64,000 bases of DNA, taken from the NCBI GenBank assembly GCA_963575745.1, contig CAUYUJ010020535.1, positions 27,051 to 91,050 of the forward strand, written 5' to 3'. Position 1 is the stretch's first letter; each line of letters starts with the position of its first letter. The notes under the pieces were generated by a model. That model had not been told where the DNA came from. It saw nothing but the letters and a program-made list of their open reading frames with translations, and searched no databases. Positions 3,305 to 57,820 of this stretch are shown one piece after another. Origin of the DNA: Prorocentrum cordatum. Its lineage: Eukaryota > Sar > Dinophyceae > Prorocentrales > Prorocentraceae. The translations under genes and the position numbers were made by a program.

Positions 3305-3345
<41 letters not shown>

Positions 3346-4385: not shown

Positions 4386-4425
<40 letters not shown>

Positions 4426-9121: not shown

Positions 9122-9125
9122 CGCC

Positions 9126-24500: not shown

Positions 24501-25664
24501 CCCCGGCGGTAACAAAGGTTGACGGTTTACCGCCGGCGCCCAGTTGACAAGAAAAATCTCGACGGACCTTTTGCTGACTTTTGGTCGGTTGTAAATTTTG
24601 TTCTTAAACTCAACCATTCGTTAGATCTGTAGAATTTTTTCTGACCATATTCGATCTTATGCCCGCTCGCCTTCTTAATCTCAGCTCGATCGGGTAAATA
24701 TTTCTGCAAAAAAACATCGCGTTGGCATCGGCTCTTTCGAGTCATCTTGATACGCGTTGTCGGTATTTTGTACTGAACTCGAGCTGTAGGGCAGCTACAG
24801 AGCTCATTCTCATAGGAATCGATTGCGAATCATCAGGCGCGTTCGTCTGTTCCATCTAGAGGTCTGAACTCGGTCTGCTGCCCGAGCTAGGTTCGCGAAA
24901 CTATTCGTGTTGTTGGAGTCATCTTGAGAGGTGCTGACAGTTTTCTGCACTTAACTCGGGATGTAGGGGGGCTACAGGGCTCGTACTCACAGGAATCGAT
25001 TCAGAGACATCAGACGCGTCCGCCTGCCAAATGCAGAGCTCGGAACTCGGTCTGCTGCCCGATCTAGAATCGCGAAACTATTCGTATTTGTCGAGTCATC
25101 TTGAGAGGTGCTGTCCGTTTTCTGCACTTAACTCGGGCTGTAAGGGGGCTGAAGGGCTGGTAATCACTGGAATCGATTCGGAGACATCAGTCGCGTCCAC
25201 CTGTCGCATTCAGAGCCCTGAACTCGGCCTGCTGCCCGAGCTAGGTCCGCGAAACTATTCGTATTATTCGAGTCATCTTCAGTTGTGCTGACGATTTTCC
25301 ACTGAACTCGGGCTGTAAGGGGGCTGCAGGGCTGGTAATCACAGGAATCGATTCGGAGACATCAGACGCGTCCGCCTGTTGCATTCAGATGTCTGAACTC
25401 GGTCTTATACTCGAGCTAGATTCGCGAAACTATTTGTATTGTTCGAGTGATCTTGAGAGGTGCTGTCGATTTTCGCACAACTCGGGCTGTAGGAGAGCTA
25501 CAGAGCTCGTGCACACAGAAAACGATCCAGAAGCATGAGGGGCGTTTGGCCGTTGCATCGAGAGGTCTGAAATCGTTTAGGCTAAAAAGCTATTCGTTCT
25601 CTGCAATTTTTCGACATTATATATGCTCAGGAAGCTCTACGAGTCCCCCGGCGGTAAGGAAGGT
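21529..25664. repeat. Palindrome-separated satellite cassettes up to first LINE
   Basis: Palindromes at about 22640-22672, 22781-22810 (reverse, partial), 23332-23363, 24503-24537 and a split one at 25649-25664 that received a LINE. Between are satellite cassettes as at 10336-18369. No gene is supported. Confidence 0.88.
22812..23165 (-). mobile_element. ~354-bp MITE-like element, reverse copy
   Basis: Ends are ACCTCGTAGAGCTCTCTTC and GAAGAGCTCTACGAGGT, about 17 bp of near-perfect inverted repeat. The interior is the reverse complement of 16798-17150 in outline (TAGAGGAATT/CGGCGC region, then a T-rich block). Non-coding. Confidence 0.65.
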
Positions 25665-28600
25665 GAGGAAATCGGCGAGGTCCCCACCAAAGCAGACCTT
25701 ACCCCGAAAGTTTCTGAGAAGTATGTTGCCGCTCGGGAGGCCGCACTTGAGATGAGGAGGAAGAGAAATAAGGGTGAATGCACGGAGGAGGAGTTCAAGA
25801 AGGCGAGGAGGAGGTACAGATATGAGAGGAGGAAGCATGGGAGGAATATCTTGGAGTATGAGTTCCGTCCAGGTCTACAGCATCGAACATACCTTAAGAC
25901 GCTCAAAGTCGAGGGAGTGCTCACAGGCCCTCAGAGTCCTCAAGTCTAAGTGGGAGAAGGCCCTCAGAGCGCACGGTCTGGCCATGTATACTGATGAACA
26001 TGAGCGTGCACGCACAAGCAGTAAGCTGGAGGAGATGAGGAAGAGGTTGCAGGAGGCGAATATGCAGGAGTACCAGCCTATCGATATCGGCCTGCTCATG
26101 CGTGCTAGGTCTCGTCTTCGTTCAGGAAAGGCCGTAGGTAAGGACAACATCAGCGTCTCCATGCTTAAGCACATCCCTTGGTCAGGTTGTCTTCAAGTCT
26201 TGCGGTGCTTTCAGCAGCTGTTTATGCGCGAGTATTGCACACCCACAGCATGGCGCCATATATGTATACAGCTGATGCCGAAGTCTGTGAAGACTTGCGA
26301 ATTCAATGACACACGAGCTTTATCATTATTATCTTGCCTGTCAAAATGGTATATGTCATGTCTCACCTTGTTGGCCGTGGACCATCTCAAACGGAGTGTT
26401 GCCCCCGAGGTCATGCTCTTCGGGTTTGTTGCTGGAAGACGGACACACGAGATTACTGGTGGTTTGAAGAGAGTTGCTCAGCACGCGACGGAATGGGGGA
26501 AGTCATATTGTATGCACACGGCGAGCTTAGACGTGTATCGTGCTTTTGATAACGTACAGGTGGCAGACGTTGCTGACTGCCTGGAGGAGTTGAGGTTTCC
26601 ACCTGAACTTAGTTTTGCGCTCATGGAGGGCCTAGCTGAGAACAGGGCCGATTTATCTTTCCAGCAGGTGGATGTCTCGGACATAGCTTGGGATAGTTGT
26701 ATCCGCACAGGTAGTGTTGAGGCTCCGCTCTTTTGGTTGTGTGAGAGTGTGCTCATGTTCCGTTCTGTGGTCTTGAGTTGGCAGGAGCGGGGGATGGGAG
26801 TGCAGTTGACGCAGCAGGCAGGTACTCGTCATCTTACACATGCTATTTGGGCCGACAATGTTCTGTTGTGTGCCAGAGATCAGAGTGAGTTGACGACCAT
26901 GATTGCGGAGATCAGTGTCCCACTTTATCACAGGAAGTACAGATGGAAACCGAGTAGCTTGCAGTTTATTCGCTTTGGCTACGATGAGCCTGGGACCGAG
27001 AGTTTGGATGTCTCTTTTGCGTTGCCGAATTCCCAGGATAAGCGTCAGAGAGTGACTATAACGTTGCAGCAGACTGATCGTTTGGAAATACTTGGCACGA
27101 TTCTTGAAAACAGCATGCGACAACATGAGGACTTAAATCATCGGATTTCTCTCGCACAAAAGCCGTTTTGGCAAGATAAGAAGTATTACATGTGCCAGGG
27201 TATTAAGTTGAAGAAAAGATTGCGGCGATACGACTCACGTGTAAGAAGCCGATTATTGTTTGCAGTGGAAGGGATGACAGCTGACAAAAATGCTATTGAA
27301 TCGATTCATGCGTTCGAAGGCCGTTTACTTTCGAAGATGGTATGGAGACGGAAACGTGACACTGAGAGTTGGCCACAGTTTTTCCAGAGCGTGTACTTGA
27401 CGGGGCGGAAGGCACTCCGGACAGCTCAGATGCCGAGTGCGGTTCAGCTTTTTCTTTTCAAACAGTGGAGTTGGGCAAAGGATGTGGCGACGACAACTGC
27501 TCAAAACGGGATCCGCAAAGTTGATGACGCCCAGCCTACAATTGATCCAATGGAAATGGGTGGTGCAGTGTCTCTTGATATGGATGGGATGTCTCAGAAT
27601 GCGGGTGCTACTGTACCGATTACCACGGATTTGATGTCTCAGAATGCGGGTGCGGTCGTACCGATTACCACGGGTTCGATGTCTTTGAATGCGGGTGCTG
27701 CTGTACCGATTACCAGAGATCTGAAACGACGGAGGGTGACTGTTATTGTGGCCCCTGTCATTACTGCCCGAGGGGACCTCACCGTTGCTCTGCCAGAGGG
27801 TCAGGAGAACAGCGCCACGAGTCAGAACCGACGACGGCTTATCTCTCAGGCGTCCCGTGCTGCTGCCAAAAGGAGCAGGAATGCTCCTACATCATCAACG
27901 CCATCATCATCATCAGCCCCTACACCAGCGCCAGCAGCCATGCGAAGAAGGTTTCGAAGTGATATGGTGGGGGCGAGTGCGGATGACCCTTTCTTGCAGG
28001 CCCGTTACACGATGATGCATGCCGCCAGCCCGTGGACTCAGCAGATGGATGCCGTTATTCGCACATATAACTCGCAGGAAGCACGATCCTTTACACGTCG
28101 AAGGGAAGGTGGAAAAACGGTGGGACTTCGTCCGTGGGGCTTGCCATTTGAAACGGTGGGTGGAGATGCTTGGTATGATACTCTTGAGTGGACTCAGGCA
28201 GGGTGGAGATGTTTTATCCGTACGTTGCTTTCGGAATGGGACCTACAACATGTTTTAGAATATGCTCACCTGCCTGAACCAAAACCCTGGAGGCCGAAAA
28301 ACGACGAGGAGGAGGTGGAGGGGACGGAGGAGAGAAATAATGAGATTGCAAAGCGGCTTGCCTATAACTTCGAGAATGCCAGCGTCTGGAACTACGAGGC
28401 TGAAGGGATTCCCGTCGAGCTCTGTGGTGACTCCCAGGTGGTAGTGAACTGGCTGGTGGGACAATATGTATGTACGACGGAAGTGTATTGTGAGACCATT
28501 GCACACATTCAAAGTATATTATACAGACTACACTTGAACTACCGCGTGAATCTGAGGCCGCCGTCTTGGGGTTTAGATCCTTGGAAGTGGTTTTATCGTG

Positions 28601-29004
28601 AGGGAAATGAGCGTGCTGATGCTGAAACTTGGAAGGCCCGCGCGGGCCAGAACCATCGTACTTTCGACCCGTACATTCATACTCTCAGAAGGGAACAAAT
28701 AAAGGGGATTCGCGGCTACTTCGATGGTGGTCGTTCCTCCCACGGTGTTGGCATTGGTTGGGTCATTGACTTATTCGTGCTCCCCCTCCCTGCTCTTCAA
28801 CACTCTCAAGGCTCTTGGCTATTCAACATAGCCTCCGAGGCTGCCGCCATCCCGCCGACCTGCACGGTTAGTCAAGCTGAGCTCTTGGCCAGCAAGCGCC
28901 TCGCTGAAGGTGTCGAGCACCTGCTGCTCCTCTGCTGCGGACCTGAATCCTGAGCGGGGGCTCCCCTGTCCCTGTGGGCTCCGAGCACAGCAAAAAAGGA
29001 AGGT
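25656..29004 (+). mobile_element. LINE family A copy 1, 5'-truncated, in palindrome loop
   Basis: The pre-insertion palindrome is split: left half ending CGGTAAGGAAGGT, right half starting AAGGAAGGTTGACGG. The duplicated AAGGAAGGT is at 25656-25664 and 28996-29004. The insert is 25665-28995 with a short A-rich 3' end. It lacks ORF1 and the endonuclease domain, starting within the linker before the RT. Confidence 0.85.
25665..28953 (+). pseudogene. LINE ORF2 remnant: RT plus permuted RNase H, one frameshift
   Basis: The first part is read in one frame to about 25940 (linker ending LKTLKVEGVLTG). The rest, from about 25915, is in the next frame and is open to TGA at 28951, so one frameshift separates them. 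RT motif A is SLDVYRAFDNV, motif B region RTGSVEAPLFW, motif C HAIWADNVLLCAR. A threefold 15-residue repeat (MSQNAGATVPITT) follows the thumb. The RNase H part has CGDSQVVVNWL, then REGNERADAETW, then YFDGGRSSHGVGIGW, then VSQAELLASKRL. The endonuclease is missing, so it cannot be autonomous. Confidence 0.88.
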
Positions 29005-32000
29005 TGACGGTTTACCGCCGGCGCCCAGTTTGGTGACTTTTGCTCGGTTGAAAATTATGTTCTCAAAATTCAACCATTCGTTAGAGCTCTAGTATTTTTT
29101 CCGTGATATTCGAGCTTATTCCCGCTTGCCATCTCGATCTCAGCTCGATCGGGTGAATATTACTATCGAAAAGCACTGTGGCGGGATCGGCCGTTTTGAG
29201 TCATCTTGATACGCGCTGACGGTTTTCTGAACATAACTTGAGCTTTAGGACAGCTACAGAGCTGGTAAGCACAGCTAATCGATGTAGAATGATTAGGCGC
29301 GTTCGCCTGTTGAATCTAGAGGTCTGAACTCGGTCTGTTAGCGAGCTAGGTCCGCAAACCTATTCGTATTATTCGAGTCATCTTGACAGGATCTCTCGGT
29401 TTTCTGTACTTAACTCGAGCTGTAGGACAGCTACAGAGCTGATATTTACAGAAACCGATTCAGAATCATGAGTTGCGTTTGTCTGTCGAATCCAGAGCTC
29501 TGAACGCGGTCTGCTGCCCGATCTAGAATCGCGAAACTATTTGTATTGGTCGAGTCATCTTGAGAAGTGCTCTCGGTTTTCTTCACTCAACTCGCGCTGA
29601 GGGGGGCTACAGTGCTGGTGGTCACAGGAATCGATTTGAAGACATCAGGCGCGTCCGCCTGTCGAATCCAGAGCTCGGAACTCCGTCTGCTGCCCGAATT
29701 AGGTCTGCGAAACTATTGTATTGTTCGAGTCATCCTGAGAGGTGCTGTCGGTTTTCTGCACTCAACTCGGGCGTAGGGGCTGCAGGGCTGGCAATCGCAG
29801 GAATCGATTCGGAGACATCAGACGCGTCCGCCTGTCGCATTCAGAGGTCAAAAAATATTCACTATGAGTCGGAATGTTGGTAGGTGCTGTCGGTTTTCTC
29901 AACTTAAGTCAAGCTAGGAAGCTCTACGAGTCTCCCGGCGGTAACCAAGGTTGACGGTTTACCGCCGGCGCCCAGTTCGAGCCATCTTGACAGGCGCTCT
30001 CGGTTTTCTGTACTTAACTCGAGCTATATAAGAGCTACAGAGCTGATGCGTACAGAATCTGATTCAGAATCATCAGTGGCCGTCGTCTGTTGAATCCAGA
30101 GCTCTGAACTCGGTCTGCTGCCCGATCTAGAATCGCGAAACAATTCGTATTGTTCGAGTCATCTTGAGAGATGCTGTCGGTTCTCTGCACTTAACTCGGG
30201 CTGTAGGGGGGCTGCATGGCTGGTAATCACTGGAATCGATTCGCAGACATCAGACGCGTCCGAACTCTGTCTGCTGTCCGCGAAACTATTCGTATTGTTC
30301 GAGTCATCCTGAGAGGTGCTGTCGGTTTCCCGCACTTAACTCAGGCTGTAGGGGGGCTGCAGGGCTGGTAATCACAGGAATCGATTCAGAGACATCAGAC
30401 GCGTCCGCCTGTCGCATGCAGAGGTCTGAACTCGGTCTGATACTCGAGCTAGGTTTGCGAAACTATTCGTATTGTTCGAGTCATCTTTGTGCTGTCGATT
30501 TACGCACGTAACTCGGGCTGTAGGAGAGCTACAGAGCTCGTGCAGAAGACAATCCAGAAGCATCGGGGGCGTTCGGCTGTTACATTGGAGAGGTCTGAAA
30601 TTGCTTGGGCTGAAAAACTATCTTTTCAGTGTAATTTTTTCGACATTATATGTTGTCAGGAAGCTCTACGAGTCCCCCGGCGGTAACGAAGGTTGAGGGT
30701 TTACCGCCGGCGCCCAGTTTCGGCATCGATCAGCCAGAGGAAGCAATTCTGGCGCGGGGTAGAGCTAGTGACTCGTAGAGCTTCCCTAAGCTAGCAGCTG
30801 GAAGCTTAAGAGTCATTCGGACGCACTGGCAGGCTAGTTGGCAAGGAAAATCTCGACGGAACTTTTGCTGACTTTTGCTCAGTTGAAAATTATGTTCTCA
30901 AAATTTGAGCATTCGTTTGAGCTCTAGTATTTTTCCCGTGATATTCGATCTTATTCCCGCTCGCCATCTTGTTCTCAGCTCGATCGGGTGAATATTACTA
31001 TCGAAAAGCACTGTGGCGGGATCGGCCGTTTCGAGTCATCTTGATACGCGCTGTCGGTATATTGGACTTAACTCGAGCTGTAGGGCAGCTACAGAGCTGG
31101 TAGGCACACCTATTCCATTCAGAATCATCAGGCGCGTTCGCCTGTTGAATCCAGAGGTCTGAACTCGGTCTACTAGCCGAGCTAGGTACGCAAACCTATT
31201 CGTATTATTCGAGTCATCTTGACAGACGCTCTCGGTTTTCTGTACTTAACTCGAGCTGTATAGCCACATAGCTAATACTCACAGAAACCGATTCAGAATC
31301 ATCAGTCGCGTTCGTCTGTTGAATGCAGAGCTCTCAACTCGGTCTGCTGCCCGATCTAGAATCGCGAAACTATTCGTATTGTTCGAGTCAGCTTGAGAAG
31401 TGCTGTCGGGTTTCTGTACTAACTCGGGCTGCAGGGGAGCTACAGTGCTTGCAGTCACAGGAATCGATTTCAAGACATGAGGCGCGCCCGCCTGTCGAAT
31501 CCACTCGGAACTCGGTCTGCTGCCGAGACTAGGTCTGCAAAATTATTCGTATTGTTCGAGTCATCCTGAGATGTGCTGTCGGTTTTCTGCACTCAACTCG
31601 GGCTGTAGGGGGGCTGCAGGGCTGGTATTTACAGGAATCGATCTGGAGACGTCAGACGCGTCCGCCTGTCGCATTCAGAGGTCAGGAATCGGTCTGATAC
31701 TCGAGCTATGTTTGTCAAACTATTCGTATTGTTCGAGTCGTCTTGAGAGGTGCTGTCGATTTACGCGCGTTACTCGGGCTGAAGGAGGGCTACAGAGCTT
31801 GTACAGAAGACAATCCAGAAGCATCGGGGGCGTTCGGCTGTTGCATCGAGAGGTCTGAAATCGCTTGGGCTGAAAAATTATTCGTTCTCAAGTTGCTTTT
31901 CCACATTATCTGTTGTCAGCAGGAAGCTCTACGAGTCCCCCGGCAGTAACCAAGGTTGACGGTTTACCGCCGGCGCCCAGTTGGTCGACCCGGCCAGAAA

Positions 32001-32287: not shown

Positions 32288-32355
32288 ACCAGGTTGTGGC
32301 AGAGCTTACCTCCTGCCCAGCCTGGCCTCGCCGCTGGGGGTCCCCTCGTTTCGAG

Positions 32356-32368
32356 CTGCATCGTGCAG
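32356..32368 (+). promoter_or_regulatory. Conserved 5'-UTR hairpin of LINE copy 2
   Basis: CTGCA-TCG-TGCAG, a 5-bp stem with a 3-nt loop, preceded by TCGAG and 59 nt from the 5' junction. The equivalent hairpins in the other two elements with intact 5' ends (49846-49858, 56556-56568) change one stem pair while keeping it paired. Likely an RNA structure in the element transcript. Confidence 0.6.
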
Positions 32369-32765
32369 AGAGGCGGCTTTTGTTCCCCATACTGTACACG
32401 GTATCAAGGCGGAAGCGCGGGAATCGAAATCTGGCGGGGCATTCCTTCACAACGTGGTTCCACATACTGTACACGGTGGTTCCACATACTGTACTGTTCC
32501 ACATAATTGATTCACTGTTATCGTGAGAGGACTCAGGACGGGAGACTCCTGGGATTCACAAGTTGTCTTTCGTCGGCAGTGTGGTCTTGAACATTGGGGA
32601 GAGACAACATCACAGTGGTACCGCAGACAGGGTCCTTCCTTGGACATACCTTCTGTTGACCTGGATCAATATTTCGGGACTGCACGCCACAGTTTCAAAC
32701 GTGCAAGTGAAGTGTTACAAGATCGTGCTTTTCTTCAAAGGTGGGGGTTCCCAGACTCTGAAGAT

Positions 32766-33914
32766 ATGGCCAATATTGCTGCCAACATGCCTGGAGGAGG
32801 AGATGCAGTCATGGGAGCAGGAGAGGATTTTCAGAGGCAGGTTCGTCATTGCGGGGCAGAGGGACGTGATGGGGAGGGACGAGCATATCAGGATGCGCTT
32901 GCACAAGCACGACAGTCTCTTGAGGCAGCCAGGGCGGCCAGCTTGTCCACAGCGAGCGAGGCGCCTGGATGGATGCAAAACTTTCACAAAGAAATCATGG
33001 CAGGTCAGGCGGTAGCAGCAGCTGAGCAGGGAATGATGAAAGCTGATATTGCACGCATTTCTACCCATCAGGAGGTGCAGGACAAACGCATGAGTGATCT
33101 AGAGCGTCAGATGAAGGATCTCCGTTCGAATCCACCAAGCACTGCCAGCGCATCCACCTCTGGAGGTTTCGGTACTGGTCCTGGTGCCAATCCTCTGGGA
33201 GGAGGGGGAGGACAGAGGCTCTCTTGGCATCGTAGCTTTGTCGAGCTCACTGGATGGACACAATGGAATGGGTCAACACTTCAGCGTTCACAATCGATGA
33301 TGAGGGATTCGGATGCTGCTCAGCTCATCACTAATATCAGGTCAATACTTCCCAACGAGATCGATAGTCGTTTCGATGCGATGGGAACCCTACGCTTGAA
33401 CGGCAGTCGCATGATGATGAGCTCGGTGAAGATGAAGTTTACGGCGGGCACAGAGGATTCAGTTTTCTGGGAGATCAAGCAACTTCTCGAGGATGCCTTC
33501 ACGCCTGACAACACCCGCACGCCACAGCAGACGGCACGTTGCCCACCCACACGTGCCAGCATGTTTGCGAATATGACAGCCACCCCAGCAGCAGTCAGAG
33601 TACGATTGGAAGCACCTCCATGGAAGAAGGATCACATATCGGCATGCGGGAGATTCTACGGCACATGGCGTGAGAAGATAGGCAACAACCCAGCGATGGA
33701 TATCAAGGCCGAGACGGGGTCGGGCAGTGGTACGAGTACGATCTGGACGAAACCTGCCGATGCGAGCCGCAGACCGGTTGAGGTTGCTGTATTCAAGGTG
33801 ACGACGGGCAACTGGGAAGTACATCGTGACATATGGGATGGCACGATTAAACACAACACAAACATCACATGCACGTATGATGATTTCACGGCCGCTCTCA
33901 ATTCAAGTCGTTGA
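32766..33914 (+). CDS. LINE ORF1 (gag-like RNA-binding protein), copy 2
   Basis: The frame is open from 32523, but the first ATG in it is at 32766; initiation upstream at a non-AUG codon is possible. It encodes a Gly/Ala-rich N-terminal part, a predicted coiled coil (HQEVQDKRMSDLERQMKDL) and a domain starting SFVELTGWTQWN with a downstream beta-rich segment (MMSSVKMKFTAG). This order resembles L1-type ORF1p (coiled coil, RRM-like domain, C-terminal domain). The C-terminal part has a conserved PPWKKDHISACGRFYGTWR, matching PHKQPHVNCAGKFQ in copy 4. It would bind the element RNA. It ends at TGA 33912-33914, in the same frame as ORF2. Confidence 0.82.
   Translation: MANIAANMPGGGDAVMGAGEDFQRQVRHCGAEGRDGEGRAYQDALAQARQSLEAARAASLSTASEAPGWMQNFHKEIMAGQAVAAAEQGMMKADIARISTHQEVQDKRMSDLERQMKDLRSNPPSTASASTSGGFGTGPGANPLGGGGGQRLSWHRSFVELTGWTQWNGSTLQRSQSMMRDSDAAQLITNIRSILPNEIDSRFDAMGTLRLNGSRMMMSSVKMKFTAGTEDSVFWEIKQLLEDAFTPDNTRTPQQTARCPPTRASMFANMTATPAAVRVRLEAPPWKKDHISACGRFYGTWREKIGNNPAMDIKAETGSGSGTSTIWTKPADASRRPVEVAVFKVTTGNWEVHRDIWDGTIKHNTNITCTYDDFTAALNSSR
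33912..33914 (+). promoter_or_regulatory. In-frame TGA between ORF1 and ORF2, possible readthrough site (copy 2)
   Basis: Context is CGT TGA CGG GGC. The frame continues open for 15 codons to the ATG at 33960 and then through ORF2. The same single TGA arrangement occurs at 43385-43387 (AGT TGA CGG) and 51259-51261 (GAA TGA CAT). Here ORF2 has its own ATG, so readthrough is not compelled in this copy. Confidence 0.5.
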
Positions 33915-33959
33915 CGGGGCTCAACGGGTCCTAAGAGTGGGTCGCCTGACTCCCTACTC

Positions 33960-38252: not shown

Positions 38253-38296
38253 CCCAGCTGGAACATCGGTCCGAAAACCCAAAAAAAACCAGGTTG

Positions 38297-41667: not shown

Positions 41668-41688
41668 CGGTGTCGATTTTGGCTCGAG
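41668..41688 (+). other. Spliced-leader-like sequence at LINE family B 5' edge
   Basis: CGGTGTCGATTTTGGCTCGAG matches the dinoflagellate spliced leader CCGTAGCCATTTTGGCTCAAG at 16 of 21 positions, with ATTTTGGCTC exact. It lies where satellite sequence ends and element sequence begins, on the sense strand. Trans-splicing of the LINE RNA before reverse transcription could place it there. The satellite itself contains GATTTTC-like sequence, so chance is possible. Confidence 0.35.
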
Positions 41689-41858
41689 TTTCAGGGTTCG
41701 AGACGCCAGGGTTCGAGACGTCAGGGTTCGACGTCGAACAGGGCCCACGTCAGGGCACACGCACAGGCTAGCCTCAAGCCCCTCTCTCGGGCGGCGCGTG
41801 TTTGACGCGTCGCGGGGGCTGTGGTCACATTGATTCCTTGTTCTCGTTCCTGACATCA

Positions 41859-47109: not shown

Positions 47110-47163
47110 CTGGCTCTAGCCCGTAGGCTTGGGCGCGCGCGCCCTGTGTAGCCTGACCAAACA

Positions 47164-47875: not shown

Positions 47876-49305
47876 AGAAAGGTTGAACGTGCGAGACAGA
47901 AGTTCCATGATGCACATTATGTGGGTATTGTACAGAAGTTTCTCAGAGTGCACTGGATGTCGGCAATCGACGTCCACGATTTTGCCCAGAGGTTGATCAC
48001 AGATCAGGAGGCGCCGGAGGCGAACTCGACAAGAGCTTGGAGAGATTCTCGTTTCTCATGCCTGGCGTTTGGCCGGCTGTGGGATAGAACGAGGACAGAT
48101 TCAAGCGAGGCTCTCAGATGTTGGGGGAAATGGAAGGAGGCTAGCTCACTGAAACGACATCGTGGGGGACAGGAGAGTGTAGGGCGTCGTTCTTGGTATT
48201 ATTCTTTGGAATCGTTTTATGGTTTATCCTGGTGGGAGTTCATTGTTGGAAGTTTTGAACATTTCATGGGTTTCGCTGCGCGCGTTTGTTCTAGTAGTAT
48301 GTTGAAGTATTTCCAGAAGAAATGCAAAGGCTTGGCGTCCTCAGGGGTGCCTGTGTTCTTGAATATGGATGAGGATGGAGGGGTTCATATAGGTCAAGAT
48401 CGGGAGGATACACCAGCATATAGGGATCGACTTAGCAAACGTATCGCGCTGCATAACATGCGTTGCACACAGTGGGACCTCGAAACGGATGGGATACCAC
48501 TGGACATCCAGGGGGACTCATTGCTAGTGATTAACTGGCTCTGTGGGAAATGGAAAGTATTAGCTCAGGTATATCAGAGAAGGGTGGACACTCTGATAAA
48601 CAAGTTGGACGAGATGCAGGATACTTACTCGGTGAGGCCTCCAGAGGCTGGCCGTGACTTCTTCTCTCATTCTTTTCGGGAATGGAACCAGAGGGCTGAC
48701 TTACTGACCCATCAGGCCCGTCAGGGCCATATGTACGCCGATTTCTTTTGCCTCAGTGATTTCGAATCTCAGTGTTCTACTCCTTGCCTTATCAGAGCTG
48801 GCTTTGATGGGGGTGTTTGTAGCCGCGGAAGTGCCTGTGGCGTGTGGATACAGATTGGTCTGCGTAACAAGTATATCTTCTCGCGGACCGACATCACTTT
48901 CAAGGATGTGTATCTTGCGGCTTGGTGTCTGCCACCAAGTGCCGCGGTCACAGATGCGGAGTTATCAGCGGCGGAGCGCATATGTGATGTGCTCCCACAG
49001 GTTGTACAGACCGTCTTTGAACATTCGCAGTGATTAGTCGCACATTGTTTCATCTCATATGTTGTCTTCTTGTATATTCTAACAGCTTCGCTGTTTATTT
49101 GCTCTTCGTTTATCATTTGTGTGCTTTGCGATTGATTGTGTCATTGCTGGCCTATGATTCTCTTTATTCCAACAGCTTCGCTGATGTGAAAAAAGAGTTG
49201 ACTGCTGCCGTGACGAATAAGAGGCCTTGATTCGCCTGAGACTTCGTTGGACCTGGCCTCAGTGGCCAAGACCGTCCCAGCAAAGACGCAAAACAGAAAG
49301 GTTGA
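47876..49305 (+). mobile_element. LINE family A copy 3, 5'-truncated, in palindrome loop
   Basis: The duplication AGAAAGGTTGA is at 47876-47886 and 49295-49305; the insert is 47887-49294. Only the last part of ORF2 and a 3' UTR of about 260 nt are present. The UTR includes two AACAGCTTCGCTG segments and TGGCCTCAGTGGCCA, a possible 3' hairpin. Confidence 0.85.
47887..49033 (+). pseudogene. LINE ORF2 C-terminal fragment with permuted RNase H (copy 3)
   Basis: An open frame of about 380 codons to TGA 49031-49033; the frame extends by chance upstream into satellite. It begins in the domain before RNase H (HRGGQESVGRRSWYYSLESF resembles copy 2). Then DIQGDSLLVINWL (motif 3), REWNQRADLLTHQAR (motif 4), AGFDGGVCSRGSACGVW (motif 1) and AVTDAELSAAERI (motif 2). 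Sequence is closest to copy 2. No RT, so a dead truncated copy, but without stops or frameshifts, suggesting recent insertion. Confidence 0.85.
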
Positions 49306-49780: not shown

Positions 49781-49845
49781 AACCTGGTTGCCTCCCTCCT
49801 CAGGGGTCTGGCGGCTGGGGGCTCCCGCTGGGCCCTCGTCTCGAG

Positions 49846-49858
49846 CGGCATTGTGCCG
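49846..49858 (+). promoter_or_regulatory. Conserved 5'-UTR hairpin of LINE copy 4
   Basis: CGGCA-TTG-TGCCG preceded by TCGAG, 55 nt from the 5' junction. Relative to copy 2 the second stem pair is changed from T-A to G-C, keeping pairing. Confidence 0.6.
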
Positions 49859-50220
49859 TGCTGCTTTCCTTGGTTTCCCTTACCGTACGCGTTACTGCAG
49901 AGTGTCGTTTGCCTGAGTACCGTACACACTCATTCTTTGTTTGATTCAGATTCCCGTACGTGTGCTGCAGAGTGTCTTTTGCCTGAGTACCGTACACACT
50001 CTTTGGAGGTCGAGACTGCTGGAGGACACTATCATTCCTTGACTGTCGGAGTACACATCATTTCTTGCCATCTGCAAAGACGGCGTGGAATACTCAGAGA
50101 AGTCCCTCGTGGGAAAGCAGGAAGCTACCCCCCAGTGTTCTATCAGAATCAGCTGTAGGTGAGTTCCACAGTATCGACGGAGACAGTGCTCTTTCTTCCC
50201 TTGATTTCCCAGATCTCAGG

Positions 50221-51261
50221 ATGGAGGAGAACACAGCGGCTGGACCCTTTGGCCCCCAGCGGGCGCAACCACCTGTCTCGGGCCTGGTTGACAGCAGGCG
50301 AAGAGGCGGGGACCAGAGGAGCCGCAGCGGTGACAGAACGGATGACAAGCCCCCTGCTTGGTGGGCTGGCGCTCAGAGTGCGATGATCGATGCCCAGAGG
50401 ATACAGCTGAATGAGACCCTCACTGCACGCCTTGCCCCCATGGAGGCGACACTGGCGACGCACACGGCGTCAATTGCCTCAATGAGACGCGAGATGACTG
50501 ACAATGCAGCATCCTTGTCAGCACTGAGAACAGAATTCAACGCACTTCAAACTAGATCGGAGTCAGGGTCCAGCAATGGGGTGTCTTCTCGGATGTCTGG
50601 GGCCTTTACTCGTGCGACCTGGAACCCGTCTTTCATTGAAATCAAGGGCTGGGTGACGGACTGGAAAAATTATGAGCAACGAGGCCGCCAGATGCTGACG
50701 CAATCACAGGTAAATGATATCCTCAATGAGATTGTTCTTTCACCGATCGTAGCCAGCACTTCGGCGGAAGGCAGGATTGACACACCACGTACTCAAGAAG
50801 AAAATGATGGTCGCACATTCGGATACAGTCGCATTAGAATCTTTTTCACCATGGGGACCGACTCCAGAATATTGTGGGATATGCGCCAAAGACTCCTCGC
50901 GGCAGTGCATAGTGGAACCAGTAAAACACTGACTGATGTGGCCAAACAGGCTACAGAGGCACAGGGTAGTATCAAAGTCATCGTTGAGGCGGCCCCACAC
51001 AAACAACCACATGTTAATTGCGCAGGTAAGTTTCAGAACATCTTCAGGCGCCATGTCAATGCGGCCCTGGGAATTATTGTTCGAGCGGAGTTGGGACCAC
51101 CTACGACACACTTCTGGGGAAAGCTCCCCAACGACACCACAAATGGCAAGGTCATCGCCGTCTTTAACCCAGCAACGAACTATGAGATTCTGCCCGCTCT
51201 GGCCGTCTTGGACCCTGCCATCAATACGGCACAGCTCCAGGCTGATCTGAGGGCTGAATGA
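50221..51261 (+). CDS. LINE ORF1 (gag-like RNA-binding protein), copy 4
   Basis: Start chosen at the first ATG (50221) in a frame open from 50065. It has a Pro/Arg-rich N-terminus, then a long coiled coil with heptad-like spacing (residues about 65-120, MEATLATHTASIASMRREM). Then an RRM-like domain beginning NPSFIEIKGWVTDWKN with a second strand region YSRIRIFFTMG, and a C-terminal domain with AAPHKQPHVNCAGKFQNIF. Same architecture as ORF1 of copy 2 despite low identity. No CCHC zinc knuckle is seen. It ends at TGA 51259-51261. Confidence 0.82.
   Translation: MEENTAAGPFGPQRAQPPVSGLVDSRRRGGDQRSRSGDRTDDKPPAWWAGAQSAMIDAQRIQLNETLTARLAPMEATLATHTASIASMRREMTDNAASLSALRTEFNALQTRSESGSSNGVSSRMSGAFTRATWNPSFIEIKGWVTDWKNYEQRGRQMLTQSQVNDILNEIVLSPIVASTSAEGRIDTPRTQEENDGRTFGYSRIRIFFTMGTDSRILWDMRQRLLAAVHSGTSKTLTDVAKQATEAQGSIKVIVEAAPHKQPHVNCAGKFQNIFRRHVNAALGIIVRAELGPPTTHFWGKLPNDTTNGKVIAVFNPATNYEILPALAVLDPAINTAQLQADLRAE
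51259..51261 (+). promoter_or_regulatory. In-frame TGA between ORF1 and ORF2, readthrough candidate (copy 4)
   Basis: GAA TGA CAT GAG. ORF2 continues in the same frame with no further stop and no ATG before the endonuclease motif GTWNIEK. The ATGs at 51258 and 51263 lie in other frames. Expression of a complete ORF2 therefore needs readthrough or non-AUG initiation, for example the GTG at 51280. Confidence 0.55.
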
Positions 51262-54200
51262 CATGAGTGGATTGCCAGAGTGGGCACATGGAATATTGAG
51301 AAAAGAGGCCCACAGTTTTCTAAAGCTATCCTGGATGCTGCCAAAGACAGAGGCATTTTCTTGTTGGGACTCCAGGAGGCGCAGTTTTTCACGGACAGTC
51401 GAAAGATTCTTGCTGGGGATGGGTGGCACATGGAACGCTCTTCGTGTAAGAAAGCAGCTATTTTGTGGAAGGGCCCATGGAAGGCTCTGCTACGTGACAT
51501 TGAGCGCGGACCAAGGTTCGTCATTGCATGGTTCAGGCCAGCCGCTATTGTTTGCTTGTACTTGCCATATGCAGATGATAAGGATGAGGAGGTGAGGGAA
51601 TTCAGTCAAGTGTTGGAGGAGGTGAAGAGGAGGATCAGAGAGTATCGCAGACGTCACCCCGAGCAGCCTGACATGCTTATCTTGTTTACGGATGCCAACG
51701 TTGAGATGGCTCCCAATATTATCGCCAACGGCCGTGCTATCACTGGTATGGGAGTGAAGGAAGAGGTGGAGGTACTATTCAGAGGAGGAAGGGAGGGTGT
51801 GAGGAAGAAACAATTGGAGGAGATGAGGTTCCTATTCGCAGAATTTTGCAGTGTGCATCGTTTACGGCTGGCAAACACGTTTGGCCCTCGCTGTGCGACT
51901 TGGCGAGGTAGGGCAGCACCCCGAGGGGAGGCGGTGCTCGACTATATAGGCATCAGTGCTTCTGATCAATTCGACTCGGGGACTACAGCTGAGTGGATTC
52001 GGGCCCCAGGGAGATCGGCCACAATCCAGGAGATCAGCGACCACAAACTAGTACATCTTGCGGTTGCTGTGGGAAGGCGGCGACGCTGCAAGAATAGAAA
52101 GCGAGCGGCCTTGCATCAATGGGAACCCGTGGACCCTACTGCGGCTGCCGCCAGCTTCGACCGTGCCCTGTCACGGCAGTTTCAAGATGCAGGCTCTCGG
52201 TATCGCCCATTACAGTCTTTGGTTGAAGAGGAGGAGGAGGAGGAGGACATCAAAAGGGACGTGAGACCCGTGAAGGAGGAGGAGGGCGAGCATAGGAGGC
52301 AGGGCAAGGGCACACTCAGCCAGGTCATCGCAGATACGGCGGCAAGTATCCCTAGCCGCCAGGTGGCCGCACTTCGGGCACCTGTGAGGCCGGAACGTCT
52401 TTGGGCGCTCGAACGGCTGTTACGGCGTGCTCTTTGGCCCAGAGAACTTCGATGCCAGAATGAAGTCAGGAGTCTTCGGAGATTGATCAAACCACTGCGA
52501 AAACAATATGATGCCGACATGCTCGAATACAAACACAAAGTTGAACAGCGTAAATTACGTACACAAGCACAGGCACTTAAAGTCAAAAAGATGACGGGGG
52601 AGTGGGAGCTTACTTACGATGTCGAGGCCAAACAGGTGGAAATTGGGAGGTACTTGAAAGACAGGGTGGAGGACTACGGGGCGAGGAGGGAGGTGCAGTC
52701 GATTCTGGAAGGTCTGGCATCGAAGCTCAACCAGTCCCAGTGCGTGAGCATCACCATGCATGACATCTTGCGAGCGAGGGCTCGCCTCAAGAGTGGGGCG
52801 GCTGGACCTGACCAAGTGACACGGGAGATGCTGCAGCTCATCCCCTTTGCCAGCCTCAAGACAATCCGACATCATTTCAGCCTGATCGCTAATCGTCGTC
52901 AACAGGTCCCCTCGGATTGGAAGAGGTTTCTGGTAACTCTCATCCCGAAGGCGCCGTCCATTCAGGAGCTCTCAGAGACTAGGGCGATCTGCCTCCTGAG
53001 CCTGGTCCAGAAGTGGTACAACCATGTCCTAGTCATTAAAGGGGAACAACATCTGGTGAATATTAAACACTCTCTTAACATGTATGGGTTTGTGCAGTTC
53101 AGGAAGGTTTCTGAGGTCACATCGTTTACCAAACATCTTTGTCAACATGCGGCACAATGGGGAAAAGGGGAGAAGCTCTATCTGGCCAGCCTCGATGTAC
53201 TCCAGGCGTTTGACCACGTTACTATCAAGCTAGCGTTACAAAGTATGGAGAAGCTTGGTTTTGACCCCGCTTTGATTTATGCCCTTCTTTGTCCTATGAC
53301 CGAAAACACGTGTAAAGCCACCTTCGAAGGGACCCAGAATTTGGATTGGATTGGTTGGGATCGGAGTATCAGGACGGGCGGGGTGGACGGACCATTCATA
53401 TTCAAAGTGGTGAGTGTGGCCTTGTGGAATGATATCGTCGGGACCTGGCCAGGGCGTGATCTGGGTTATGTTGTCGAGTCCCCCGTTCCCATGCCCACTA
53501 GATCGACGATTTCACATGCCCTCTGGGCGGACAATTTGCTGCTGTACGCTAGAGATGAACGGCAGCTCAGGACCATGGTGACTGAGCTCACTCTCCCCCT
53601 GCTCCAGGCCGGCCTCAATTGGAAACCATCCTCTCTCAAGCTCATCCCCTTTGGCGTCAATGGCTCGAATGATGTAGTTCTTCATATCCAGGCCCACACG
53701 TATAAACTTGAATGCGTTAACACTTTGGACATCCTGGGTTACAGGTTGGACAGATATTGGACACAGCATAGCGATCTGCAGTTCAACTTGGATCGTGCCC
53801 GTGGTGCCTTCTTTGCCGACATTGAATATTATAGAAGTCATCGCATCCCGATTGAGAGACGATTCCAGAGATACCGACTCCGTATCCAGAGTAAGCTACT
53901 TTTCGCAATTGAGGGGATGACGATTGACAACATCACGGCACAAAAAATATTCTCCTGGGAAGGAAAGCTATTAGCTATCATCGGAGGAAGGAGGAAAGGA
54001 GTGAATGAAGATTGGACGGTCTACCAAAAGAGGAGGTTCAAGTATGCTCGCGACCAGTTCGCCAACCTTGGATTTCTGTCGGCGGTGGAACTCTTCATTC
54101 ACAAGAACTGGCTCTGGGCCAAAGATGTCGCTTGCTTTGCCAGAGGCTTTGCGTGTCAAAATATCCCGACAGCTGCGCTGCACACGGACAGAGTACATCT

Positions 54201-56229
54201 TGATCCGACAGCTTCGCTGCACACTTACAGTCAGGCTCACACACATGTCCATTCGTCTTTGCCTGTGCCTCAGTTGTCTGGCCAACGTTCTTTGGAGTCC
54301 GCGCCCAGCTTTATTCAGACAGCCACGCTGCACACTCACAGTGATGATTCAACACATGTCCATTCTTTGTTGCCTGTGCCGCAGGTTGATGACCGTTCTT
54401 TCGACACGTTGCCCAGTTATATTCAGACAGCTACGCTGCACACGAACAGTGGAGAGCATACACACCCTCGTTCGATGTCTTCTGTGCCGCAGGTTGAGAG
54501 AGGAAGTGCTTTCGATCAGTTGCCTTGTTATATTCCGACTGCTACGCTGCACACACACAGTGCACACTTTATTCATTCTCATTGTCCGCCTCGTGCTTTG
54601 TCTCAGAGTGTGTCGCCTGAGCCCCAGAGACCTGCGGCTATGTTTGATAGCCGTGGGGGACTGACGGAGCACAAAAAAGATTGTCAACGTTCTTCTGGTC
54701 GTGTGTCGTCTGCGTCCAGTATAAGAGCTTCTTTGGAGCCGAGCAAAAAGGATGCTCATTGTTCTTCTGGTCGTGTGTCGTCTGCGTCCAGAATAAGAGT
54801 TCCTTTGAGTGACCCGCTGCAGGTGGCGCATCTGTTAGAGTGCGCCAGGCTCCTGGAAGAAAGGAGCAGCCAGCGAGAATCCCAAGGCACTGTCAGTCCT
54901 GCGGCCACAGCCCCCCCAGTCGAAGGCGAGAGCGAACCCACGCCCGCGGCCAAGAACCGTCGCAGGCAGATTGTGGAGACCCGTCTGGCCGCCAGGGGAG
55001 AGAAGCGGTGCCCTGGCCCGAGTCTCACGGCGAGCCAGGAGGAGCTCGCCAAGCGTGTCAGACAGCCCCAGCGCCCATGCGACAAAAGAGATCGGGATGA
55101 AATATGTTCGCCGAGGGGCAGTCAAAAGAGACGGTGTATTGCTCAGGTGAATGATGACCCCATCGCTTCCGCCGATAGTCTGCCTGCTGCCCCACAGGGA
55201 AGTAAGCGACCACGGGACCTCCCCTCTTCTAGCCATGATAGTGAGCCGCGAGAGGCACGACCCTCTGGCGCAAACGTGAATGTCTTCAAACTCAACGCCT
55301 ACTCTCAGGCGCGGTTGGGCATGATGCATGCGTCAGGTGACTGGGCCGCTCATCGTCGCGCGTTCGCTGCACGCTCGAGGGATTCCCAGGCTGCTCTTCT
55401 TGGATGGCGTGGTGGTACTAAATACGTCGGCTGGAGAAAATGGGAAGATGTCTTCATTGCGGATCAAGATGGCAACACTAAATGGTGGGAGACTATGACG
55501 TTTGGGAAAGAAGATTGGTCGATTTTCGTTGAGAAGTTGCTCAAAAGATTGCACCTGCCCGCCATTCTTGATTATCTGGCCAAACCTAGAGTTTCGGTTG
55601 CCCGTACGGAGGAGGAGGAGACGAAAGTTAATAATGATAGGATTGCGCGTCGCATTGCCCATAACTTTGAAAATGAGACTATCTTTGACTATGAGGCGGA
55701 TAAGATTCCATTTGAAATACTGGGTGATAGCTTGTGTGTGGTCCAATGGATAAGAGGGCACTGGAGGTGCACGAACATGGGCTATAATAACACCTTGGAG
55801 GCGGCACAAAACACTCTTGATGCTATAACGGACACCTGTTTGAGAACTGCGTGCGCGGGGGCTGACCCAATCAAACATATTTATAGGGAGGGTAACAGTT
55901 ATGCTGATGAACTCACGTGGGCTTGCAGAGCTTGCCCACACACATCGAAGAGAAACGAGTATCTTGCCCCTTTATATACTTCGAAAGTGTTAGGATTGAG
56001 AGGTTACTTCGACGGAGGCACCTCGGATATTGGGGCTGGGGGAGGCTGGTGGCTGCAGGCTTTTGTAGAACATAAAAATGCTATACAGTGTCACGTGATT
56101 GCCGAGGAGGCGTTTGGCCTCGATAGGGAGTCAACCGTGACGGTCTGTGAGTTAACGGCCGCCTCGAAGCTAATTCACGCAATCTCGCAGATTGCGTCTG
56201 TTATAGATAGCGTCTCACACGCTCGGTAG
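51262..56229 (+). CDS. LINE ORF2: EEP endonuclease, RT (WADN), permuted RNase H
   Basis: About 1655 codons from the TGA to TAG 56227; numbering below is from the GTG at 51280. The EEP domain has GTWNIEK (Asn5), LQEAQ, FTDAN, LDYIGI and ISDHKL. Linker with an acidic EEEEEE tract, then RT: motif A Asp639 and Asp645 (DVLQAFDHV), motif B region RTGGVDGPFIF, motif C WADN with Asp751. After the thumb, four to five His-rich repeats (TATLHTHS ... THVHSLLPVPQ) and a basic low-complexity region. Then the conserved pre-RNase H domain (ARLGMMHASGDW onward). RNase H in permuted order: Asp1483 (LGDSLCVVQWI), Asp1543 (SYADELTW), Asp1578 (YFDGGTSDIGAGGGW), Glu1624 (VCELTAASKL). No inactivating change seen. 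Confidence 0.92.
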   Translation, partial: HEWIARVGTWNIEKRGPQFSKAILDAAKDRGIFLLGLQEAQFFTDSRKILAGDGWHMERSSCKKAAILWKGPWKALLRDIERGPRFVIAWFRPAAIVCLYLPYADDKDEEVREFSQVLEEVKRRIREYRRRHPEQPDMLILFTDANVEMAPNIIANGRAITGMGVKEEVEVLFRGGREGVRKKQLEEMRFLFAEFCSVHRLRLANTFGPRCATWRGRAAPRGEAVLDYIGISASDQFDSGTTAEWIRAPGRSATIQEISDHKLVHLAVAVGRRRRCKNRKRAALHQWEPVDPTAAAASFDRALSRQFQDAGSRYRPLQSLVEEEEEEEDIKRDVRPVKEEEGEHRRQGKGTLSQVIADTAASIPSRQVAALRAPVRPERLWALERLLRRALWPRELRCQNEVRSLRRLIKPLRKQYDADMLEYKHKVEQRKLRTQAQALKVKKMTGEWELTYDVEAKQVEIGRYLKDRVEDYGARREVQSILEGLASKLNQSQCVSITMHDILRARARLKSGAAGPDQVTREMLQLIPFASLKTIRHHFSLIANRRQQVPSDWKRFLVTLIPKAPSIQELSETRAICLLSLVQKWYNHVLVIKGEQHLVNIKHSLNMYGFVQFRKVSEVTSFTKHLCQHAAQWGKGEKLYLASLDVLQAFDHVTIKLALQSMEKLGFDPALIYALLCPMTENTCKATFEGTQNLDWIGWDRSIRTGGVDGPFIFKVVSVALWNDIVGTWPGRDLGYVVESPVPMPTRSTISHALWADNLLLYARDERQLRTMVTELTLPLLQAGLNWKPSSLKLIPFGVNGSNDVVLHIQAHTYKLECVNTLDILGYRLDRYWTQHSDLQFNLDRARGAFFADIEYYRSHRIPIERRFQRYRLRIQSKLLFAIEGMTIDNITAQKIFSWEGKLLAIIGGRRKGVNEDWTVYQKRRFKYARDQFANLGFLSAVELFIHKNWLWAKDVACFARGFACQNIPTAALHTDRVHLDPTASLHTYSQAHTHVHSSLPVPQLSGQRSLESAPSFIQTATLHTHSDDSTHVHSLLPVPQVDDRSFDTLPSYIQTATLHTNSGEHTHPRSMSSVPQVERGSAFDQLPCYIPTATLHTHSAHFIHSHCPPRALSQSVSPEPQRPAAMFDSRGGLTEHKKDCQRSSGRVSSASSIRASLEPSKKDAHCSSGRVSSASRIRVPLSDPLQVAHLLECARLLEERSSQRESQGTVSPAATAPPVEGESEPTPAAKNRRRQIVETRLAARGEKRCPGPSLTASQEELAKRVRQPQRPCDKRDRDEICSPRGSQKRRCIAQVNDDPIASADSLPAAPQGSKRPRDLPSSSHDSEPREARPSGANVNVFKLNAYSQARLGMMHASGDWAAHRRAFAARSRDSQAALLGWRGGTKYVGWRKWEDVFIADQDGNTKWWETMTFGKEDWSIFVEKLLKRLHLPAILDYLAKPRVSVARTEEEETKVNNDRIARRIAHNFENETIFDYEADKIPFEILGDSLCVVQWIRGHWRCTNMGYNNTLEAAQNTLDAITDTCLRTACAGADPIKHIYREGNSYADELTWACRACPHTSKRNEYLAPLYTSKVLGLRGYFDGGTSDIGAGGGWWLQAFVEHKNAIQCHVIAEEAFGLDRESTVTVCELTAASKLIHAISQIASVIDSVSHAR
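54160..54620 (+). repeat. In-frame His-rich repeats in ORF2
   Basis: About five units of roughly 110 bp, each starting ACAGCTNCGCTGCACAC and encoding TA(A/S/T)LHT, usually followed by THVHS and VPQ. They lie between RT thumb and RNase H. GACAGCTNCGCTG resembles AACAGCTTCGCTG segments in the 3' UTR of copy 3 and in the non-autonomous element at 56498-57810. Confidence 0.8.
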
Positions 56230-56315
56230 AGCCACTTGCGCCTGGTGGCCGCGGGGAGCACCGCTGCTTGCATGTGCTGGAGGACCCCGCCGCAAAGCCC
56301 GCAAAAACCTGGTTG

Positions 56316-56487: not shown

Positions 56488-57820
56488 GACCAGGTTGCTG
56501 CTGTCCCTCCTCGGGGAGCTCAGCGGCGACCTGGCCCGTCCGTGGCCTCCTCGAACCGCATTGTGCGGACGGGTTTTCTGTGCACACACGTATCGTACTC
56601 CACTGTACATCTCGTGTGCGGGCCGCCCCATATCTTCGGGTACTTCGTCGGCTGCGACGACCTCCTCTCCGTGGGCCTACAGACGATAGGTGCCAGGTTC
56701 TCTGTTGTGTCAAGTGAGACAGCTCCTATAGGAGCAGGTGCATAGGCCGCCTGCTTTGATCGTACTCGTTGCATTTGTTATCTTGTACTTCCAGGCCGCT
56801 TGTTTTGTACTTGTTGCATTGTCTGCTTGTACTTCCAGGCCGCTTGTGTTTGTGCTTGCCGCATTTGTTATCTAGTACGAGTTGCTCTCAGCACGTATCC
56901 AATTTTGACTTTGGTCGCAGTCTGAGTGCTCTTATTCACAACGCAGTGGGAATCTTCGTTGGGTGGTTGGAATAGTTTCTTTCGTGAGTTAGAAGTTGCA
57001 GTTCGAGTTGCAGTTCGAGTTTCTTCAGTACTTTGACAGTTTTGTGACATCGGAGTATCTTGATATTGAGGTCTTTGGGCATCCGATTTCATATTTCGCC
57101 CCGAGTGAAGTTCAGAATTCATTGTACTTGGTATTGAGGTCTTTGATATTGAGGTCATACGTCGCCTCGAGTGGAGTTCAGAATTCATTGCACTTGATTT
57201 CCACATACTTCGTGTTAGAACTATTGTGATTTGTCATTGCGTTGCCTTTATTCATGCCTGTGTGTGTTGTCGTGCATGCACGTGTGTTGAATAAGAGCTT
57301 CGCCTGATCTTCACTTTGTTCGGATAAGAGCCCGCATTCGCTCTAAGTAGTGGTGGGTGTCTTGGCTCACTCTGTATGTTGCGCGTTCAATTCGTTTTCT
57401 AGTCCACATTTCGACGTTGTGTTTCACGTGCATGGTCTTCCAGTGGTGCTGAGACGGTAACCGCTATATGTGGTTACTGCATGGTCTCGCATTGCCTCGA
57501 AGCGCACTCGCTATTTTAGTTCTCTTAGTTTCGTTTTTGTCTCAGTGGTGTGAGACGGTAATCGCTGTATAAACCAGTGGTTACTGTATGGTCTCTCACT
57601 GCTTCTAGCTTTGCTTCCATATCTATGGCCTGCATTGCTTCACTCATTATATTGTTAGTTGTTTTCTCGTGTACTTGCAGTCTTGTGCATTTCTGTACAG
57701 CTTCGCTGTTTGATGCATCTCTGCTTTAATCTTTGCAGTCTCGCTGTTTAGGTTCTCTGTGTCCTGGCCTGCTCCCTTGGGAGCTCGAATCGGCCAACGC
57801 AGACTTCGCAGACCAGGTTG
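56488..57820 (+). mobile_element. Non-autonomous 1.3-kb LINE family A derivative
   Basis: The duplication GACCAGGTTG is at 56488-56497 and 57811-57820; the insert is 56498-57810. The 5' end aligns with copies 2 and 4 (TCGAACCGCATTGTGCGG hairpin at 56556-56568), and the 3' end resembles that of copy 3 (CCTGGCCT ... GGCCAA ... GACTTCGCA). No ORF longer than about 110 codons. Internal repeats include TACTTCCAGGCCGCTTGT (twice) and GAGACGGTAA-CGCT (twice). It probably moves using ORF2 of full-length elements. Confidence 0.8.
56556..56568 (+). promoter_or_regulatory. Conserved 5'-UTR hairpin of LINE copy 5
   Basis: CCGCA-TTG-TGCGG preceded by TCGAA, 58 nt from the 5' junction. The second stem pair is C-G, a third paired variant at that position. 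Confidence 0.6.

Follow-up and report, generated by a model that had tools for sequence, protein, structure and literature searches.

The window, which is the whole 64-kb stretch of DNA analysed here, contains 36 sites of a palindrome, 34 on the + strand and 2 on the - strand. One + palindrome is degenerate, with its left half at 40290. Five of the 36 sites are split by LINE insertions (c1 to c5) and 31 are unbroken, which matches the figure of about 31 unoccupied sites in a preliminary description of this DNA. The window also holds units of the mobile element to which the palindromes belong, and two related LINE copies of a family B (Table 1).

Table 1. Coordinates of LINE copies, their flanking duplications, target units, and related elements in the window
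Feature	Position	Strand	Flanking duplication (left / right)	Description
LINE copy c1	25665..28995	+	AAGGAAGGT (25656-25664 / 28996-29004)	5'-truncated; ORF2 remnant in mechanical ORF 25774-28953
LINE copy c2	32297..38287	+	ACCAGGTTG (32288-32296 / 38288-38296)	Mechanical ORF1 32523-33914; ORF2 33960-38252 (EEP, RT, C-terminal domain)
LINE copy c3	47887..49294	+	AGAAAGGTTGA (47876-47886 / 49295-49305)	5'-truncated; only the C-terminal part of ORF2
LINE copy c4	49791..56305	+	AACCTGGTTG (49781-49790 / 56306-56315)	Mechanical ORF1 50065-51261; ORF2 51280-56229
LINE-related copy c5	56498..57810	+	GACCAGGTTG (56488-56497 / 57811-57820)	No coding sequence recognised; homology to c4 at the 5' end
Unoccupied target (example)	31925..31981	+		3' subterminal repeat AGCTCTACGAG, stem-loop, CAGT end
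HINE-like unit (type example)	13721..14936	+		LINE-free; empty site 94% over 88 bp, gapless; 3' stem-loop 14880-14936
HINE-like unit	15309..17193	+		Empty site 96% over 90 bp, gapless; interrupted by the unit at 15369-16415
HINE-like unit, nested in 15309..17193	15369-16415			Empty site 94% over 79 bp, gapless
HINE-like unit with c4 in its 3' stem-loop	49412..56338	+		Outer flanks, once joined, align ungapped to an uninterrupted copy (76% over 87 bp)
LINE B1	41672..47165 (ends approximate)	+		Same-clade relative; broken reading frame; inside a 177-bp repeat
LINE B2	18643..19180 (start, onset of coding similarity; end by eye)	+		3' fragment; 3' end common with B1; not in a palindrome

Insertion of LINEs into the palindrome loop

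Each of the five copies lies inside a palindrome loop and is flanked by duplications of 9-11 bp that represent the loop variant of that particular site. When the flanks are joined, a normal palindrome is regained in all five cases. Both features had been reported in the preliminary description, and the junctions bear them out. The duplications end in GGTTG in c2, c4, and c5, in GGT in c1, and in GGTTGA in c3; the previously described insertion after GGTTG (GGT in c1) thus holds for c1, c2, c4, and c5 and needs a small correction for c3. Among 120 pairings of left and right junctions, two attain the observed summed match of 49, namely the true one and a swap of c2 and c5, whose loops are alike. 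The LINE target sequence includes CCAGGUUG.

All five LINEs have the same orientation as the palindrome, for which the two-sided chance is 1/16 by simple arithmetic. Under a simple model in which insertions fall uniformly over the 39,373 bp outside LINEs, with 36 targets, and with few events, the probability of finding at least five of seven LINE copies in targets is 4e-11 for 5-bp targets or 7e-9 for 14-bp targets. The sample comprises five insertions from one 64-kb window rich in palindromes, and the position, orientation, and duplications of these insertions are direct observations. B1 is not in a palindrome, the nearest ones being 631 and 687 bp away, and B2 also lies outside; therefore, not every member of the clade targets the palindrome.

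Lineages of the LINE copies

The copies qualify as APE/EEP-type non-LTR retrotransposons by their reverse transcriptase (RT), EEP endonuclease, flanking duplications, 5' truncation in c1 and c3, and the absence of terminal direct repeats (LTRs) in a self-comparison. The RT domain PF00078 is found above the Pfam cut-off in c2 (E 2.4e-9) and c4 (E 1.9e-8), and in c1 with E 7.9e-6 and 26.2 bits, under the cut-off of 29.6. RT motif C reads WADN rather than ADD. The C-terminal domain of ORF2 may be a permuted RNase H. The EEP region is kept in only c2 and c4 among the five copies. The EEP residues LQE, D-x-[NQ], and SDH are present in c2, c4, and B, with a Pfam PF03372 match in B only. The EEP model of c2 (pTM 0.73) has APE1, L1-EN, and R1Bm-EN among its best 50 Foldseek matches, at E 1e-9 to 1e-8; the endonuclease type proposed earlier is thus upheld by both motifs and predicted fold.

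Protein identity among the four coding copies (c1-c4) is 27-36%, and blastn between the five copies gives no match at E 1e-3. The insertions are therefore independent, and the coding copies are separate lineages rather than the single LINE family A of the preliminary description. The RT tree, which has P0001-P0003 as its only outside relatives and no named clade references, is a polytomy. The tree of the C-terminal region pairs c1 with c4 and c2 with c3, and leaves B and B2 unplaced between them. The outside relatives come from protein searches in which about 8000 candidates sharing most words were scored: the c4 ORF2 retrieved P0001 (97%), the c2 ORF2 retrieved no relative, and an alignment-based search retrieved P0002 and P0003 as weak matches. 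No relative was confirmed in the viral contigs scanned, the genome contigs scanned gave none, and neither set gave a further locus with flanks.

The target as the 3' end of HINE-like units

HINE elements have subterminal inverted repeats, at a distance of 2-4 nt from the terminus on the 5' side and of 38-60 bp on the 3' side, a 3' palindrome, tandem central repeats, and insertion at a T site without clear duplication (PMC4067079, PMC7492417). The units in the window resemble them in their subterminal inverted repeats, 3' palindrome, central tandem repeats, and insertion at T; unlike a HINE considered as the inserting element, the HINE-like unit here is the landing pad. The subterminal inverted repeat CTCGTAGAGCT lies 2 nt from the 5' end, as that end was set by the analyst. 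The distance from the subterminal repeat to the 3' end is 44-46 nt in all 26 units measured; the other 10 of the 36 sites comprise the five split ones, two on the - strand, and three with an altered CAGT end. The stem-loop terminates in CAGT, and many units carry central tandem repeats of 176-177 bp. Of the 5' ends, 11 of 13 on the + strand and 3 of 3 on the - strand are preceded by a T, after two more 5'-end pattern matches were discarded as minus-strand 3' ends. The base following the 3' end is T in 18 and A in 6 of the 26 units, and a 1-bp T duplication may accompany insertion. No autonomous partner with Rep/helicase was found among 14 ORFs scanned by Pfam.

Thirteen plus-strand 5' ends were each joined with 3' ends within a set distance and compared with empty sites, and for six of them a match runs unbroken through the joint. 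Those at 13722, 15310, 15370, 18267, and 49413 are gapless (18267 has an additional gapped match), and the one at 30771 matches at 81% with a gap away from the joint and also matches with the 3' end at 38318. The 5' end at 13607 gave a gapped match only, and those at 16708 and 16798 gave none. No information comes from the ends at 6044, 12568, 40345, and 41060, since another palindrome end forms their left flank. The palindrome is thus the 3'-terminal stem-loop of non-autonomous Helentron-like (HINE-like) mobile units. Its description as a dispersed palindrome interrupted by LINEs stands, whereas its status as a free-standing repeat is rejected: the units have 5' ends and empty sites, and the sequence after CAGT, judged by eye, varies or enters a unit at differing points. 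A reading of the post-CAGT sequence as arrays of 5'-truncated retroposons was dropped when the empty sites revealed nested insertions.

Target recognition and proposed mechanism

The copies very probably represent site-specific LINEs that belong to one deep clade, use an APE/EEP endonuclease, and target the stem-loop at the 3' terminus of a HINE/Helentron-like rolling-circle family. The occurrence of distantly related LINEs at one point of a hairpin suggests a group that uses the tail of another transposon as a landing pad. The bottom strand would be nicked by the endonuclease at the foot of the left arm (GGCGGT^N). At this nick the LINE RNA would begin to be reverse-transcribed from its A-rich end, and a top-strand cut after GGTTG^ would yield the roughly 10-bp duplication. 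The recognised feature is most likely linear duplex sequence that takes in the asymmetric loop, because a symmetric stem alone would permit both orientations.

Recognition of structure by the endonuclease rather than of linear sequence, be it an extruded cruciform or hairpin or HINE DNA that is single-stranded during rolling-circle transfer, is an unlikely alternative in view of the shared orientation of the five copies. In each of the five cases the putative bottom nick coincides with the foot of the loop, within 0-2 nt owing to A-tail ambiguity, and three unoccupied targets fold into hairpins, which would suit structure recognition; against it, the arms and the loop are both conserved in sequence, and linear recognition therefore accounts for the observations. 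It is similarly doubtful that an EEP LINE clade reads the folded 3' hairpin (as a cruciform or as single-stranded transfer DNA) with the aid of a loop-pairing 5' RNA element, by which retrotransposition would be coupled to the replication of the other transposon.

Insertion might instead be loose, with copies in HINE 3' ends tolerated and others lost, and a window that is almost wholly repeats, in which B1 and B2 persist elsewhere, would be in keeping with this. Such survivorship is very improbable, as it cannot put five junctions within 2 nt on each strand, and the HINE bodies, which are far larger and equally non-genic, contain none of the five insertions. It is scarcely credible that one or two original insertions were copied, along with the palindrome, by segmental duplication: palindrome-bearing tandem duplications are present at 6.2-9.8 kb, but different loop variants are duplicated around the LINEs. 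The copying of one insertion, which the preliminary description had named as the counter-explanation, is excluded by the low protein identity and the lack of blastn matches.

Comparison with known systems and significance

Target-specific APE-type LINEs include Tx1L (in Tx1D), TRAS/SART, and Waldo. R2 is a 28S-specific LINE with a restriction-like endonuclease; the present LINEs resemble it in using a single site in a repeat, with reverse transcription presumably primed at the target, and differ in the EEP-type endonuclease of c2, c4, and B. Site-specific APE-type LINEs of the Tx1 and R1 clades have an APE/EEP endonuclease, an RT, and a fixed site in a multicopy repeat, and transposons are named among the LINE targets already known (PMC4640811). 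The present LINEs resemble them in these features. They differ from the Tx1/R1 clades in targeting the 3' stem-loop of a rolling-circle-type element, and the site is not used by family B, which belongs to their own clade. Among the matches listed in a literature search, the titles and abstract openings describe no LINE targeting a Helitron or Helentron end and no permuted RNase H in a LINE.

If true genome-wide, the 3' terminus of a rolling-circle-type transposon would be a new target class for site-specific APE-type LINEs, common to LINE lineages whose residues differ at about two thirds of positions. By landing in a plentiful non-genic repeat, the LINEs would spare the host, and many sites would stay vacant. 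The lineages offer a natural series for the gain and loss of EEP endonuclease specificity, with family B as a built-in negative, and the same series bears on whether hairpin structure or sequence is read. The 31 empty sites beside five filled ones in one window make a direct comparison between strains feasible.

The 5' and 3' ends of the LINEs

The copies c2, c4, and c5 begin directly after GGTTG. Homology of the 5' ends links c2 with c4 and c4 with c5 (0 of 500 shuffles as good in each case), and c5 and c2 do not match (144 of 500). For the 3' ends, no copy pair is clearly above shuffles, the lowest value being 36 of 500. In a search for a ribozyme at the LINE 5' end, no Rfam family reaches its gathering score in the window; in permissive scans of the 5' ends of c4 and c5 (not c2), all hits are far below gathering, the best being a CRISPR-repeat model at E 0.025.

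Pairing between the target loop and the LINE 5' end is equalled by 0 of 58 internal windows in c5 and 8 of 292 in c2, and in c4 by 16 of 318 with its own loop and 48 of 318 with the consensus loop. The truncated copies show nothing of the kind (84 of 159 in c1 and 60 of 63 in c3). These values are suggestive of a target loop that may pair with the LINE 5' end. The folding z-scores of the 5' ends are -3.56 for c5, -1.18 for c2, and -0.69 for c4.

The Palindrome and Its Split Copies

Scanning the 64-kb window for the two palindrome halves turned up 33 left halves and 34 right halves for the plus strand and two of each for the minus strand; a further, degenerate left half at 40290 has the right half at 40317 as its partner. 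These make 36 palindrome sites, 31 of them unbroken, in line with the roughly 31 unoccupied sites of the preliminary description. The other five are split by LINE-type insertions (c1 to c5), with 1.3–6.5 kb between the halves. The longest string common to both junctions is 9–11 bp at every split site and lies in the loop, and joining the outer flanks restores a palindrome of normal form in all five, as judged by eye; the loop-derived 9–11 bp duplications and the precise removal described previously are both confirmed. Among 120 left/right junction pairings, the observed total is reached by two, the true pairing and a swap of c2 and c5, two copies with loops that read alike. The insertion point had been placed after GGTTG, or after GGT in c1. 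The probable top-strand break follows GGTTG in c2, c4, and c5, and in the truncated c3 and c1 it is displaced by 1–2 nt. Under a simple model of uniform insertion, the probability that at least five of seven LINE copies fall in the 36 targets is 4e-11 (5 bp targets) or 7e-9 (14 bp). At 6181–9820, ~1 kb tandem duplications carry one palindrome each, and parts of them are 98–100% identical.

The Target Element

By eye, the sequence downstream of CAGT differs between copies or begins at varied points of the unit, and that upstream of the palindrome falls into few classes, each with AGCTCTACGAG ahead of the palindrome. The 5' ends are marked by the inverse repeat [AC]CTCGTAGAGCT; of its 15 pattern hits, two were set aside, being 3' ends of units on the minus strand. 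The distance from the 3' repeat end to the terminal T is 44–46 nt in 26/26 measured units (ten of the 36 sites were left out: five split, two on the minus strand, and three with an altered end). T precedes 11 of 13 plus-strand 5' ends and all three minus-strand ends listed; directly after the 3' end (n = 26), 18 units have T and six have A. In the empty-site test, 6/13 plus-strand 5' ends gave joined flanks that align through the joint with a copy lacking the insertion; the remaining seven were uninformative, gapped, or without a match. In the unit at 49412–56338, c4 sits inside the unit's own stem-loop. An empty site matches the outer flanks of this unit at 76% over 87 bp. Many units contain 176–177-bp tandem repeats.

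HINEs (non-autonomous Helentrons), in the sections of PMC4067079 and PMC7492417 consulted, insert at T-rich sites and have a 3' palindrome, with subTIRs lying 2–4 nt from the 5' end and ~38–60 bp from the 3' end; some also have tandem central repeats. The palindrome-ending units show these features. In the low-complexity region at 1000–4900, 8.7 copies of a 93-bp unit stand in tandem, and both strands have long open frames; the five frames scanned with Pfam gave no hit above a curated cut-off.

LINE Coding Content

Mechanical ORF calling, with nominal start positions, gives c2 and c4 an ORF1 and a long ORF2 each. ORF2 contains an RT domain (PF00078), and its N-terminal motifs LQE, D-x-[NQ], NT, and SDH are common to c2, c4, and B, which belongs to a related LINE family (family B, copies B1 and B2). 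An AlphaFold2 model of the c2 N-terminal region (290 residues, three sequences, pLDDT 67, pTM 0.73) matches AP endonucleases, L1-EN, and R1Bm-EN (E 1e-9 to 1e-8). Together, the motifs and matches uphold the earlier assignment to the EEP type. The N-terminal region is missing from the 5'-truncated copies c1 and c3. RT motif C is WADN in c1, c2, c4, and the database protein P0001, WANN in B, and ADD in the outgroup proteins P0002 and P0003. P0001, on a 6.6-kb public contig, is a near-identical relative (97%) of the ORF2 at 51280–56226. In the C-terminal ORF2 domain, RNase H-like motif residues are arranged in a circular permutation, with GDS and N..AD preceding DGG and EL.

Coordinates of LINE features
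Feature	Positions	Remarks
Permuted RNase H-like motif residues, C-terminal ORF2 domain	37203–38249, 48026–49030, 27961–28950, 55294–56226, 18643–19119, 46663–47106	
LINE 5' ends with possible target-loop pairing and second stem	32280–32420, 49773–49913, 56481–56621	three sequences
Family B	41672–47165, 18643–19180	in HINE-body repeats, not palindrome

Independence of the Insertions

INDEPENDENCE. The coding copies c1, c2, c3, and c4 are joined by tblastn at 27–36% protein identity. Among c1–c5, no match appears with blastn at E 1e-3; the single LINE family proposed previously is not sustained. Both results rule out segmental copying of one insertion. In a more sensitive comparison of 5' ends, homology was found for c2–c4 and c4–c5 (0/500 shuffles each), was unsupported for c2–c5 (144/500), and was not found for c1 and c3. 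The low protein identity, the lack of blastn matches, and this limited homology indicate that old lineages made the five insertions separately, rather than one original being duplicated. As c5 is without recognised coding sequence, its membership rests on its 5' end, site, and duplication.

B1 and B2 are relatives within the clade that share a 3' end and lie outside palindromes, which speaks against targeting throughout the clade. The RT tree (c1, c2, c4, B, P0001) is a polytomy, and the C-terminal tree supports the pairs c1–c4 and c2–c3, with B and B2 unplaced between them. Scans of viral_contigs and genome_contigs found no further LINE locus with flanks.

Proposed Insertion Mechanism

The duplication has its left edge at GGCGGT^, exact in c5 and within 0–2 nt in c1–c4, where A-rich LINE tails blur the junction. 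This edge would place the first nick on the bottom strand, at the foot of the loop. All five insertions have the palindrome's orientation (two-sided chance 1/16). Since a symmetric stem alone would not fix orientation, the loop sequence must either be read or play a necessary part in priming. Cruciform extrusion may occur, but no observation here requires it.

The Tx1 and R1 clades both include target-specific APE LINEs, and known LINE targets include transposons, according to the portion of PMC4640811 consulted. The present LINEs would be target-specific too, with a Helentron-type 3' hairpin as their target. Among the titles and abstract openings listed, none describes a LINE clade aimed at such a hairpin; most subscription papers lie outside this coverage.

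The 5' RNA of the LINEs

Pairing of the LINE 5' ends with the target loop, along with a shared second stem, is a lead only, as it comes from three sequences. In the predicted junction-spanning folds of c2, c4, and c5, target sequence such as CCAGGUUG pairs with the LINE 5' end. Internal control windows pair equally well in 0/58 cases for c5, 8/292 for c2, and, for c4, 48/318 with the consensus loop or 16/318 with its own loop. Against shuffles, c5 alone is clearly more stable (z −3.56; c2 −1.18, c4 −0.69). The second, small stem (columns 84–94) keeps one pair despite two-sided changes, with three pair types in three sequences.
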